64,000 nt of DNA from Calothrix sp. PCC 7103 (lineage in GTDB: Bacteria; Cyanobacteriota; Cyanobacteriia; Cyanobacteriales; Nostocaceae), in NCBI RefSeq assembly GCF_000331305.1, contig NZ_KB217482.1, positions 62,001-126,000 on the forward strand. The letters are read 5' to 3'. Under the pieces are notes generated by a model, which saw only the letters and a program-made list of their open reading frames with translations, was not told where the DNA came from and ran no database searches. Below, one piece after another: positions 47,334 through 63,082 of the stretch. The translations under genes and the position numbers were made by a program. Within the stretch, counting starts at the first letter, position 1. Each line of letters opens with the position of its first letter.

Positions 47334-48779
47334 ATGGCATCAAAAATTCGTATGCAAGATGTTGTGGTGATTCTCCCAGGTATCATCGGCAGTGTGCTTC
47401 AAAAAGATGGTAAAGATATATGGGCATTTAGTGGACAGGCACTCTGGCAAGCGCTAAAGAGCAAGGGTAATTCTCTAGAGCAACTCAAGCTCCTTGCAGA
47501 TAGAAGCTCAGACAACAGAATTAAAGCAACTCGCTTAATGGCGGATACTTACCAGATTCCAGGTTTAGATAAATTTGATGGCTACTCAGCAATTTCTCGC
47601 TTAATCGAAGATAACTTTGATATAATACCCGGCAATTTTTACGAAGATCCAGAAGATAAACCAGCAAACTTTTATCATTTCCCCTACGACTGGCGCCAAG
47701 ATAATCGCGAAACTGCCAAAATACTACAAGAACAAATTAACAAACGGTTGTATCAGTGGCGTAAATATAACGATAACCCAAATGCCAAAGTAATACTTTT
47801 AGCTCACAGCATGGGAGGACTAGTATCCCGTTACTACCTGGAAGTTTTGGAGGGATGGCGAGACTGCAAAGTTTTGTTTACCTTTGGTACACCACATAGA
47901 GGGTCTGTTAAGTCGCTTTCATACTTAGCCAATGGTTACAAAGAATACTGCCTTGACTTTACAGAACTTGTACACACTTTCCCGTCAGTTTACCAGTTGT
48001 TACCAATTTACGAAATGCTTAAAGTTGGTGGGCAGTACCAACGGGTTGCAGAAACAGATAATATACCTAACGTAGATGCGGAAAAAGCGAAAGATGCCTT
48101 AGCATTTCATCGCGAAATTGAAGCTGCTGTAGAAAAACACAAAAAAGATGAAGAATACAAAAGTAATGGCTACAAAATTATACCGATAGTTGGTATTCAA
48201 CAACCAACTTTGCAATCAGCAGAACTAGCTAATGGCAAGCTAACAGTTAGCCAGGAACTTCCAACTCATATAGATAAACTTCTTACAGGTGGTGATGACA
48301 CCGTTCCTTATCTCTCAGCAATTCCAATTGAACTTTCTAACGATTACAGAGATACTTATATAGCTGAAAAGCATAGCAGTATTCAAAAGCACAGTCAAGT
48401 CTTAACTGAGCTATACAATCGCTTGAAGACAATGCAGGTTAACAACTTAGAAGAAATTAGAGGACCCGAAATAAAATCTGAAGTGGTAGAAAAACCTGCT
48501 ATTAGTTTAAGCATAGATGACCTCTACCGAGTCTCAGAAAAAATTGAAATGCGTGCTAAAGTTCTCAATTTCGCTAAAAAATTTACCAAACTTAACGCAT
48601 TAATTACACCCATTTCCGCAGATGGAAACGCACAAAACATTGAATTTAAACCAGACAATGACGAATGGGTGCTACCTATTACAGACTTAGCACCAGGACT
48701 ATATCGCTTACAGGTAGAAACAGATAACCTCAGTTCTCAAGCTCCAACTCCTATCAACGATATATTTGAAATAGTGTAG
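47334..48779 (+). CDS. LCAT/phospholipase-like alpha/beta hydrolase
   Basis: 481 residues from the ATG at 47334 (MASKIRMQDVVVILPGIIGS), which has GGGAG upstream. The open frame extends 77 codons further left but only through an integrase remnant and a hydrophobic non-homologous piece. The fold is lecithin:cholesterol acyltransferase-like: N-terminal VVVILPGIIGS, YDWRQDNRE, nucleophile Ser159 in LLAHSMGGLVSRYYL, TFGTPHRGS, catalytic Asp near 320 in GGDDTVPYLSA and His near 346 in EKHSS. A C-terminal ~100-residue beta-sandwich (ISLSIDDLYRVSEKIEMR onward) could bind a partner. It lacks a signal peptide, so it would act inside the cell, possibly on membrane lipids. It leads into the defence-like operon, 111 bp upstream of the next gene. 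Confidence 0.88.
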   Translation: MASKIRMQDVVVILPGIIGSVLQKDGKDIWAFSGQALWQALKSKGNSLEQLKLLADRSSDNRIKATRLMADTYQIPGLDKFDGYSAISRLIEDNFDIIPGNFYEDPEDKPANFYHFPYDWRQDNRETAKILQEQINKRLYQWRKYNDNPNAKVILLAHSMGGLVSRYYLEVLEGWRDCKVLFTFGTPHRGSVKSLSYLANGYKEYCLDFTELVHTFPSVYQLLPIYEMLKVGGQYQRVAETDNIPNVDAEKAKDALAFHREIEAAVEKHKKDEEYKSNGYKIIPIVGIQQPTLQSAELANGKLTVSQELPTHIDKLLTGGDDTVPYLSAIPIELSNDYRDTYIAEKHSSIQKHSQVLTELYNRLKTMQVNNLEEIRGPEIKSEVVEKPAISLSIDDLYRVSEKIEMRAKVLNFAKKFTKLNALITPISADGNAQNIEFKPDNDEWVLPITDLAPGLYRLQVETDNLSSQAPTPINDIFEIV

Positions 48780-48838
48780 GGTGCGTGACGCCTTGAAAGA
48801 ATTTCAACGCAGTGATAAGACTTGTAGCGTCACGCACC
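48780..48838. terminator. Inverted repeat GGTGCGTGACGC between hydrolase and next gene
   Basis: Perfect 12-bp arms at 48780-48791 and 48827-48838 with a 35-bp loop, starting directly at the end of the hydrolase gene. No T-run follows. The arms share GGTGCGTGA with the repeat at 45657. It may attenuate transcription into the next operon or be a dispersed palindromic element. Confidence 0.5.
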
Positions 48839-48890
48839 AGAGCAATATCATAACCGTTCAGTAAAAATTTTTCATATATAACATTTTATT

Positions 48891-60570: not shown

Positions 60571-60574
60571 ACTC

Positions 60575-63082
60575 CTATACCTCTCTTACACGTTTTAAGT
60601 GTTCATCAAGCATTTCATAAATTTTGATACCTTTATCTTGCATAAAATTCCGGAAAAAATTTGTAGTTATGTTATCTAACACAGCAGTGTATGAGTGGTT
60701 GCTAGCTTCCCCTAGCAAACTAAACTTAAGCTGCTCATCTAACTTTTGGTTCATCATAGTTTGGGAAAAATTGAACTGTCGGTCGATATCACCCAGCAAG
60801 TGCGGCATTTCCATTAGATTCCACATACTTTCCAACAAATGCCTTTGAAGCATCTGCTCAAATTTTGTAGAAATTCCTTGACGGATTTCAACATCTTCTG
60901 GTAAATACTTCATTGGAATACAAAGCGCATCAAACCGCCTGAGCAACCAATTTGCAAGCTCACCAGGCATCATCTGCGTTAATTTAGTTGGTTGAACAAG
61001 TGTATCTGAGTCATCAAGCACATTCAACCCCAAATCAACAATTCGGTTAGTATCTTTGCCCTGCTCTCTTAACCATTCATGTATCCGTTTGACTAGACTA
61101 GTCTCATCCGCCTCTACGTTGTGTAATATTAAAATTGGTAAATTGGTTCTATTAACACACTCTATAAAAGCGGCTTTTAACTCTTCATCATTATTTTGGT
61201 TACGCAACAAAGCCATATCCATTCGGCACAACCAGTTATTATCAATAACTACTTGCTCCATTTCTCGCACTTGCACATAAAGTATTTTATTAACGTGATA
61301 CTTGGTTAAAAGAAGACTAGATAATTGTTCTGCTAATACAGAAAAATGGTGATTAGAGTGTAAGGGAACAGAAATTATTTCATCTTGTGGACGAATTACA
61401 CGCCGAGCCAAGACATTATTCCTACTATTGTAGCGATTAATATAAATTTGTAGTCGATTGATAGCATCCTGTGTTTGTAGCCAATCAGCAAAAATTGGAT
61501 TTTCTTGTAACCGAATTCTTAATTGCTCCAACAACTGACCAAGAGCAAATCGCTCATTTTTACCCACCTCACCTAAGATGGAGTCTAATGCTGCAAATAT
61601 AACTTTCTCCAATTGCAGTTCTTCTTCTTCGTGCGCTTGCCTAAATGCCACCAATAACCTATCTAAAATTTTACCCAAAACTTGCTTAAAAGGTAAGTGG
61701 TTAAGATCAGTTTTACTAAACTCGCTGTGTTCCACATTAGGACAAATCAAGTGTAGAAATAGAATTACAGGAGTGTTTTCGCGCAAACCATAGGCATCCA
61801 TAAATCCCCGTAAACCCAACACAGGTTGTTCCTTTTGAATTGGAGCAAAAAGCCATCGACGTAGAAACGGGTCAGCGTAAGAATGTGTAAAATTTATAGC
61901 TGCCCATACCTGCCGCTTGGCGTCCTTGAGTTCACCATCTTTCAAGCGAGCCACAGCCACTTCAATCACAAAAGGTATATTTGGGTCATCACCATCATCA
62001 GTAGCAATTTCATAAAAAACTTTGCCTTCCACAGGTAGCACTTGCGTCAATATTGACTGAATATGCTTAACTCCAATGCAACCTAAAGCAGCAGAGTCAA
62101 AGCGAGGACTGTGACGGTACAATATCCGGTACAGTTGGTTAGCAGATGAACTTTCGATATCATTTACCGTCAATCCATCCTGCCCAAATAAATCAATTAT
62201 TTTACTAATAGATACAGTCTTGCTATCAAAGCCAGCAAAACAGTCACATATCGTTTCAACAGATAACTCATCAGCATTTTGCTTTCGATATAAAGCACCC
62301 AATAAATCCTGAAATGCCGTTAGCGAATACCACTGCACAGGTGCAATTCCTCGAAACTTACCTACCCAACTTGCATCAGCAGGATACTCCCTTATCCACT
62401 CCTGTCCCTGAATTTCTACCGTCCAGCTAAACCGTGCATGAGGGTTGCATAAGTGATATTTCTCCGCCAAACTTTGGATTTGGTCTAGCGTGCGAGGTAT
62501 TTCTTGAACAAAATGATCAACGCCAAGCCTAATTACCGTTCCCTCCACAAATTTACATGGATTTTCCAGACACTCAAAATTGATAGTTTGGGCAGTAGAG
62601 TCTATCACATAGCGGGGTAAATACTCCACTCCGTTACAACGAATAGATAACGGCTTAAGTTCCGGACTCCAATCGCCAGCAACACGATGGCGTAATGCAT
62701 AAGGAATTCCCAGCAAAGTTTTAAGAGCATTGCCCAAAGCACCGCGCATCAAACCTTTAAAAAACGCTTTACGTGACGTATAAGATTTTGTAGCAAAAAT
62801 ATCCTCTAGCTTTGACACAGGAAAAAGTGCCTTATTAGTAACTTGAATAAATAATTGCTGAGACTGACGTTCTGGTATGCTGATATATTCTATACGGATA
62901 TGTTGAACAGGTAACTGGGTTACATCATCTCGCCATAAACTCTCATCAGCATCCAAAGCATTATCAATCAACTCTTTGACTATATATATATCCCACTCAT
63001 GAGCTGGTTGACCAGTAGCTCGGCGCAAACCGTCCAAGCGGACAAAATCGAATTCGCGGTTGAACGAAAACGCCTCTCCCAT
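60575..63082 (-). CDS. GHKL (Topo VIB-like) ATPase, copy B
   Basis: 835 residues, a full-length paralogue of ATPase A (both begin M.EAFSFNREFDFVRLD). The N box IVKELIDNALDADES (Glu37, Asn41) and the RGALGNALKTLLGIPYAL motif are intact. The middle regions align throughout (e.g. PVILFLHLICPNVE, SKTDLNHLPFKQVLGKIL), and the C-terminal HVNKILYVQV and LCRMDMALLRN are kept. In the Toprim-like stretch the acids of copy A are not conserved (LPILILHNVEADETSLVKRI), so a nuclease or topoisomerase activity is doubtful. It heads a two-gene operon pointing toward the plus-strand operon, so the two ATPases bracket all four effectors. Confidence 0.82.
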   Translation of the reverse strand: MGEAFSFNREFDFVRLDGLRRATGQPAHEWDIYIVKELIDNALDADESLWRDDVTQLPVQHIRIEYISIPERQSQQLFIQVTNKALFPVSKLEDIFATKSYTSRKAFFKGLMRGALGNALKTLLGIPYALRHRVAGDWSPELKPLSIRCNGVEYLPRYVIDSTAQTINFECLENPCKFVEGTVIRLGVDHFVQEIPRTLDQIQSLAEKYHLCNPHARFSWTVEIQGQEWIREYPADASWVGKFRGIAPVQWYSLTAFQDLLGALYRKQNADELSVETICDCFAGFDSKTVSISKIIDLFGQDGLTVNDIESSSANQLYRILYRHSPRFDSAALGCIGVKHIQSILTQVLPVEGKVFYEIATDDGDDPNIPFVIEVAVARLKDGELKDAKRQVWAAINFTHSYADPFLRRWLFAPIQKEQPVLGLRGFMDAYGLRENTPVILFLHLICPNVEHSEFSKTDLNHLPFKQVLGKILDRLLVAFRQAHEEEELQLEKVIFAALDSILGEVGKNERFALGQLLEQLRIRLQENPIFADWLQTQDAINRLQIYINRYNSRNNVLARRVIRPQDEIISVPLHSNHHFSVLAEQLSSLLLTKYHVNKILYVQVREMEQVVIDNNWLCRMDMALLRNQNNDEELKAAFIECVNRTNLPILILHNVEADETSLVKRIHEWLREQGKDTNRIVDLGLNVLDDSDTLVQPTKLTQMMPGELANWLLRRFDALCIPMKYLPEDVEIRQGISTKFEQMLQRHLLESMWNLMEMPHLLGDIDRQFNFSQTMMNQKLDEQLKFSLLGEASNHSYTAVLDNITTNFFRNFMQDKGIKIYEMLDEHLKRVREV

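Follow-up and report, generated by a model that had tools for sequence, protein, structure and literature searches.

The window analysed here is a stretch of 64,000 nucleotides from Calothrix sp. PCC 7103 (NZ_KB217482.1, positions 62,001–126,000). At window positions 47334–63082, it contains a putative defence island in which four proteins, here called T1 to T4, share a double TIR/nucleoside deoxyribosyltransferase (NDT)-like module at the front and end in different tails, several of which resemble housekeeping proteins of the host. The island comprises eight open reading frames (ORFs), whose positions were checked, in two convergent sets separated by a gap of 38 bases. The forward set encodes, in this order, an LCAT-like hydrolase, a companion protein, GHKL protein A (50570–53080, +), T1 (53080–54840, +), T2 (54941–56971, +) and T3 (57203–59128, +); the reverse set encodes GHKL protein B (60575–63082, −) and T4 (59167–60570, −). 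The two GHKL paralogues thus stand at the outer ends of the T genes, as a preliminary description of this DNA, made without database searches, had proposed. The host genome (11.58 Mb in 12 contigs, with the island on the contig C11 of 209,850 bases) contains, according to profile searches, four T fronts, one weak match corresponding to the companion and two GHKL genes. Its photosystem I genes (three PsaA/PsaB matches) mark it as cyanobacterial; among 14 control genomes, only Synechococcus gave such matches.

The constant part of the T proteins is encoded at 53080–54129 (+) in T1, 54941–56017 (+) in T2, 57203–58258 (+) in T3 and 59500–60570 (−) in T4. T1 and T3 are 78% identical over this part, and the fronts of T1–T3 are 51–59% identical to that of T4. 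The predicted structure of the T1 front consists of two Rossmannoid domains with the fold of TIR and NDT proteins, and this model, together with the sequence comparison, bears out the proposal of four proteins with a shared, duplicated front and swapped tails. In addition to the fold, the first half of the front keeps a putative catalytic glutamate (E106 in T1), whose pattern is present in 117 of 120 listed T proteins, and on both counts the module falls within the TIR/NDT superfamily. The E106 pattern aligns with the NDT motif containing Glu88, and the E88A chain 8pqs scores lower (15.0 versus 19.6 bits); besides these, the search of PDB sequences with the T profile gave two unrelated matches, to huntingtin and to a cytolysin. 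The second half lacks this glutamate in all 80 rows that were readable, 40 rows being unread. No metabolic family of Pfam matched the module above its cut-off, and the only model that did so was the defence TIR model PF10137, in T2 (31.7 bits, cut-off 24.7).

The tails of the four proteins differ in their domains. T1 ends in an EAD1 domain (54229–54489, PF19955, E 7.6e-22) followed by an unknown domain (54508–54837) that is common to the homologue P0007. T2 carries an RRM (56051–56260), an IF2_N domain (56393–56533) and a second RRM (56726–56938). T3 carries EAD1 (58352–58606, PF19955, E 2e-12), an RNA polymerase alpha C-terminal domain (alpha-CTD, 58652–58828) and a sigma-70 region 4 (58961–59104). 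The tail of T4, on the reverse strand, is a complete plant-type 2Fe-2S ferredoxin (59170–59460, TIGR02008 with 173 bits, cut-off 81). The Pfam matches confirm that EAD1 is present in two of the four proteins. The tails had initially been considered unrelated to each other; they are indeed different and swapped, and what had been missed is the likeness of three of them to host housekeeping proteins. When compared with the proteins of the same genome, the ferredoxin is 89% identical to its chromosomal counterpart, the IF2_N domain with the following linker is 87% identical to IF2 over 77 residues, and the alpha-CTD is 80% identical to RpoA over 80 residues; the second and first RRM are 74 and 52% identical to chromosomal Rbp-like proteins, and the sigma region 4 is 51% identical to a chromosomal sigma factor. 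The chromosomal genes that resemble the tails are located on the 8.79 Mb contig C7, separate from the island. As a control, outside the island the sole strong matches to the IF2_N domain and the alpha-CTD in the genome were IF2 and RpoA themselves.

The tails are conserved at the protein level. Silent change was measurable in only 3 of 11 tail–host pairs, with ratios of nonsynonymous to synonymous divergence (dN/dS) of 0.04–0.10 (0.10 for the IF2_N tail); between the T4 ferredoxin and the chromosomal one, dN was 0.069 and dS 1.78, near saturation. Silent sites were saturated in the other eight pairs, in which protein identity is still 51–80%, and these tails have therefore long been separate from the host genes. 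The IF2 part with its linker is 87% identical both to the host's own IF2 and to that of one congener, and 82 and 76% identical to those of two others (three of six congeners compared). It fits worse in all eight genomes of other genera that were compared, with 65–71% identity in five and no match to the linker in three; among the genomes compared, the linker is common only to the host's genus.

We catalogued the tails of 120 listed T homologues out of 195. The front is N-terminal in all of them, and 114 have tails, the others having fewer than 60 residues after the front. Domains of the core cellular machinery are present in 45 of the 114 tails, according to classes that we assigned by hand from Pfam accessions, some of which we presume to denote the families named here; three proteins with mixed helix-turn-helix (HTH)/sigma matches (P0076, P0077 and P0082) were left out of this class. 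The domains detected were IF2_N (19), RRM (18), alpha-CTD (10), sigma (8), ferredoxin (2), thioredoxin (2) and S1 (2), with some proteins possibly counted repeatedly, together with single cases of FtsZ, YebC, cold-shock, RelA-TGS, DNA polymerase III alpha OB and GUN4. Named matches were obtained for the tails of ten proteins: FtsZ (E 1.4e-85), S1, YebC, thioredoxin, NusG, RelA/SpoT, DNA polymerase III alpha, CspE, PP2C and GUN4. Ten further proteins, four of them without a Pfam tail domain, were compared with NCBIfam; no named match was obtained for seven, and the remaining three matched a zinc-binding transposase-type domain, a P-type ATPase and a phosphotransferase system IIA protein. Among pairs of proteins with fronts at least 85% identical, the tails were dissimilar in 27 of 37 and similar in 10, and with fronts 75–85% identical they were similar in only 23 of 140 pairs. 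The tails are thus exchanged fast. Regarding the two thioredoxin tails, P0065 keeps the CGPC motif and P0081 has lost it, as if shape rather than activity were conserved.

A scan of 84,980 species genomes yielded three good loci besides the window: L040 in Nodosilinea, L041 in a metagenome-assembled genome of KSB1 and L042 in Symploca. A further row (L043, 36% identity over residues 74–165) and two weak strays (in genomes G036 and G186) were dropped. Each of the three loci contains companion, GHKL and T genes together. In the Nodosilinea locus, one T protein ends in three RRMs and another in two alpha-CTDs and a sigma region 4, and these tails are 64–75% identical to the genome's own genes. 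An alpha-CTD followed by a sigma region 4 occurs both at window positions 57203–59128 and at L040:11949–13799, and this arrangement resembles part of BREX PglW and of MzaA. A gene with a weak TraC/VirB4-like match is located downstream of the Nodosilinea locus. Beside the Symploca locus (L042:11506–14181), we found an ATPase with a KGGVGR motif (E 4.1e-45) and a caspase of the EACC1-associated type (E 3.2e-20).

The KSB1 locus lies between uvrC and purL and has one T protein, with ribosomal protein S1 as its tail. Aligned over 380 residues, this tail is 95% identical to the genome's own S1, compared with 92% for the S1 of two other genomes and 71–85% for that of 31 more, in a search of 40 genomes of which six gave only partial or weak matches. 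In a tree that included 29 of the 33 other S1 sequences, the tail is sister to the S1 of its own genome (support 94/85). The front of the same protein is 59% identical to that of T1, though the phylum is unrelated to that of our host; front and tail therefore have different histories. We considered whether the KSB1 tail had been copied recently or had undergone gene conversion. Neither is claimed, given that the first of 11 windows, each of 40 codons, had a third-codon identity of 0.23 and the other 10 had values of 0.68–0.88.

The T and GHKL genes are linked. Contigs were told apart by their size, the same size being taken as the same contig, and the lists comprised 120 of 195 T and 120 of 563 GHKL proteins, so the count is a lower bound: at least 49 of 109 distinct contigs with a listed T protein also carry a listed GHKL homologue. 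This proportion was 43 of 65 for contigs of 8 kb or more and 0 of 16 for those below 4 kb, and when sizes were shifted as a control, 0.5 of 109 contigs were shared. The T gene comes directly after the GHKL gene in all five cases read, the two overlapping by up to 17 bases or lying up to 5 bases apart, and they are adjacent in all three near-complete loci outside the window. These counts do not refute the preliminary proposal, which genes found mostly apart would have done. Carriage of the T module on phages or known plasmids was also considered and finds no backing: 12 stretches of viral contigs matched and none was confirmed, and there was no match in 72,556 plasmid records or in 50,697 phage records. 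Still, the island is on a contig of just 209,850 bases, and the Nodosilinea locus is followed by the gene with the TraC/VirB4-like match.

The model of GHKL protein A is predicted to fold as Topo VI-B, with the GHKL and transducer folds of this subunit, over residues 10–498, followed by a C-terminal extension, and proteins A and B are 54% identical; their reading as paralogous Topo VI-B-like GHKL proteins is borne out. The match to the DNA topoisomerase VI family model NF003218 fell far below its cut-off (27.9 bits, cut-off 274). The A subunit of topoisomerase VI (PF04406) had no match in the host genome, and 4 of 14 control genomes had one; the GHKL profile retrieved no PDB chain by sequence at E 0.01. 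Residues 610–660 of the extension resemble Toprim; however, its acidic residues are not constant (E at position 613 in 40 of 58 rows, D at position 656 in 45 of 58), so a Toprim-like domain is not claimed. The companion (48891–50561, +) had been described as a transglutaminase–TIR-like fusion, of which the second part holds: the double TIR/NDT-like module recurs in its C-terminal half in a second version, which is conserved in all four loci. Its N-terminal part, which differs from that in the three other loci, had no Pfam match to support a transglutaminase, and NCBIfam gave only a partial match to the anti-phage protein ProA (residues 37–222 against 152 positions of a model of 1903 residues, E 9.3e-13, 46.5 bits, cut-off 1500).

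Considering the constant module, the host-like tails and the linkage to GHKL, we propose, with a probability of about 0.5, that the tails are integrated baits for phage proteins that attack their host counterparts. A defence role for the island is suggested by the fold of the module, the presence of EAD1 and the gene linkage. Phages are known to attack proteins of this kind, such as RNA polymerase (ModA of T4 on the alpha-CTD and AsiA of T4 on sigma region 4) and FtsZ (phage inhibitors such as Gp0.4 of T7), and the T7 polymerase uses thioredoxin. Each locus would present up to four baits, in which a constant enzyme-like module is joined to copied proteins of the transcription, translation, division or redox machinery, as would be expected of an integrated-decoy receptor. 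The fusion would be altered once a phage factor had bound, modified or cut its bait, and the GHKL protein with its Topo VI-B-like fold may act as an ATP-dependent hub or lock over the T module. In that event, the glutamate-bearing first half of the front would act on NAD+ or (deoxy)nucleotides and cleave them, probably as an N-glycosidase, so that infection is aborted and the cell is killed or stalled, while the glutamate-less second half may serve assembly and the EAD1 of T1 and T3 may recruit further effectors. A more specific version, which we put forward only tentatively, is that a mobile TIR/NDT-like chassis arms itself on landing by making bait copies, again and again, of the resident cell's RNA polymerase and of its translation, division and redox proteins, and that the resulting array senses the effects of phages on that machinery. 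If the bait interpretation is true, the T proteins represent an unrecognised class of bacterial immune receptor in which each tail points to a host process taken over by phages, and the tail catalogue is a readable map of what phages attack. More cases could then be searched for among defence-linked proteins whose ends are near-identical to housekeeping genes of the same genome.

Several observations weigh against this interpretation. Host likeness is weak in the sigma part of T3 and in the first RRM of T2 (just 51 and 52%), and the T1 tail had no counterpart in the search of its own genome. The host's own ferredoxin is not the sister of the ferredoxin tail (which is 89% identical to it, 87–89% to those of six congeners and at best 91% to one in another genus), and the alpha-CTD is uninformative on origin, with 84% identity to the host's own and those of congeners and 83–86% in three other genera. 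An origin from the host's own genome is thus not supported for every tail. The usual DxGxG motif is not present in the GHKL protein. The T module is rare, the host genome being alone with it among 386 of its phylum (apart from one weak stray, G186) and 217 of its family. Tails are lacking in the T protein of the Symploca locus and in 6 of the 120 listed homologues, and, of the 114 tails, 42 have only signalling-type domains, seven only immune or adaptor domains and 20 are unassigned. Moreover, functional residues are kept in several tails (the ferredoxin cysteines, the GTPase motif of FtsZ and the CGPC motif of P0065), and this is equally predicted by the main rival explanation, according to which the tails dock the TIR/NDT-like enzyme on host complexes, such as RNA polymerase, the ribosome, the Z ring or ferredoxin partners, guarding or poisoning them. 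Docking would also account for tail conservation; nevertheless, the tails are highly diverse with no common partner, the active site is lost in P0081, and some tails are mere fragments, such as the C-terminal parts of RelA and of DNA polymerase III alpha, and we regard this explanation as unlikely.

Slightly less probable still is that the tails reflect the general modularity of conflict systems, being assorted input, adaptor and effector domains as in EAD-linked systems, with the housekeeping-like ones as part of the shuffle. Signalling, STAND, TPR, TIR, caspase and EAD tails are indeed common, but neither a tail grouping as sister with the S1 of its own genome nor one carrying the linker of IF2 would be expected from a shuffle of signalling domains. 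That the tails serve to target the enzyme to DNA or RNA seems very improbable: many of the families found as tails are nucleic-acid binders (RRM, S1, sigma, alpha-CTD, cold-shock and HTH), but this is not a property of the ferredoxin, thioredoxin, FtsZ, RelA-TGS and GUN4 families, to which 7 of the 45 core tails belong. Chance gene fusion or misassembly, to which the metagenomic origin of the KSB1 genome might point, is already largely refuted by frames that are open in the window, L040 and L041, by the low dN/dS values, by the N-terminal place of the front in 120 listed homologues and by the position of the KSB1 locus between uvrC and purL.

The LCAT-like hydrolase (47334–48779, +) that precedes the companion was identified correctly in the preliminary description (PF02450, 54.7 bits, cut-off 21); it was not seen in L040, L041 or L042 and is probably not a core part of the system. 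A gene of the phage integrase family (63446–63991, −; PF00589, E 9.7e-20) lies 363 bases past the end of the island. Upstream, an outer-membrane transporter of the ShlB/FhaC type with POTRA (43183–44958, +) is preceded by three long ORFs (30957–43146, +) that may encode its secreted partners. The window also encodes a protein with a CHAT protease domain and TPRs (27827–30679, −), of a kind seen in conflict systems, a protein of 1792 residues with Ser/Thr kinase, AAA, GAF and histidine-kinase domains (13109–18487, −) and an ORF of 1783 residues without a Pfam match at E 0.001 (244–5595, +).

Regarding known systems, no strong match was found in PADLOC-DB 2.0.0: GHKL A, GHKL B, T1 and the LCAT gene had no match at E 1, the companion, T2 and T4 had weak matches to TIR effectors (best 2.9e-4), and T3 matched PglW through its tail only (3e-7). 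This match covers just residues 806–947 of the 1403 of the PglW model. Passages on BREX (PMC12839542) describe in PglW an alpha-CTD-like domain followed by HTH modules, and in BREX-related systems an RRM and inactive nucleases as sensors or decoys; PglW is a kinase, whereas T3 has no kinase match in Pfam and is therefore not a PglW. The T proteins resemble TIR, CAP12-PCTIR and deoxyribosyltransferase-like effectors in their fold, in the conserved E106 and, for T2, in PF10137; they differ from them in the duplication of the module, the glutamate-less second half and the host-like C-terminal tails. The EAD-linked NTP-dependent conflict systems, as described in passages of Kaur 2020 (PMC7159879), share with the island the EAD domain and a constant core with variable partners, and decoys made from inactive enzymes are suggested there. 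The words GHKL, RRM and ferredoxin are absent from the main text of that paper, and the vWA, MoxR or GTPase core of those systems had no Pfam match in the eight island proteins.

The GHKL clamp of the Shedu protein VcSduA is proposed, in passages of PMC12137116, to control the effector, as we propose here; it is fused to a nuclease, whereas the island GHKL is a separate Topo VI-B-like protein without DxGxG. PARIS, Panoptes and Hailong follow the same logic of detecting phage attack and then aborting infection, and Panoptes uses a decoy, a logic also followed in Hailong; according to passages of PMC12409349 and PMC12657218, these systems sense an anti-defence protein, a decoy nucleotide or single-stranded DNA, whereas the T tails are copied housekeeping proteins. 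Among the titles and abstract beginnings of the open-licence literature, we found no description of a bacterial system with immune proteins to which copied housekeeping proteins of the host are joined. In plants, integrated decoys are a hallmark of immunity. The T proteins share with the plant NLRs that carry them (NLR-ID, as in RRS1/RPS4) the fusion of a host-derived domain to a chassis, though no NB-ARC or LRR chassis was matched by Pfam in the eight island proteins. Unlike the plant receptors, the T proteins are bacterial, their putative baits are core machinery and they are paired with a Topo VI-B-like protein. The parts are already known, namely the TIR/NDT fold, GHKL and EAD1, but we rate their combination, a constant immune-like module fused to tails copied from the host, as a new kind in bacteria.

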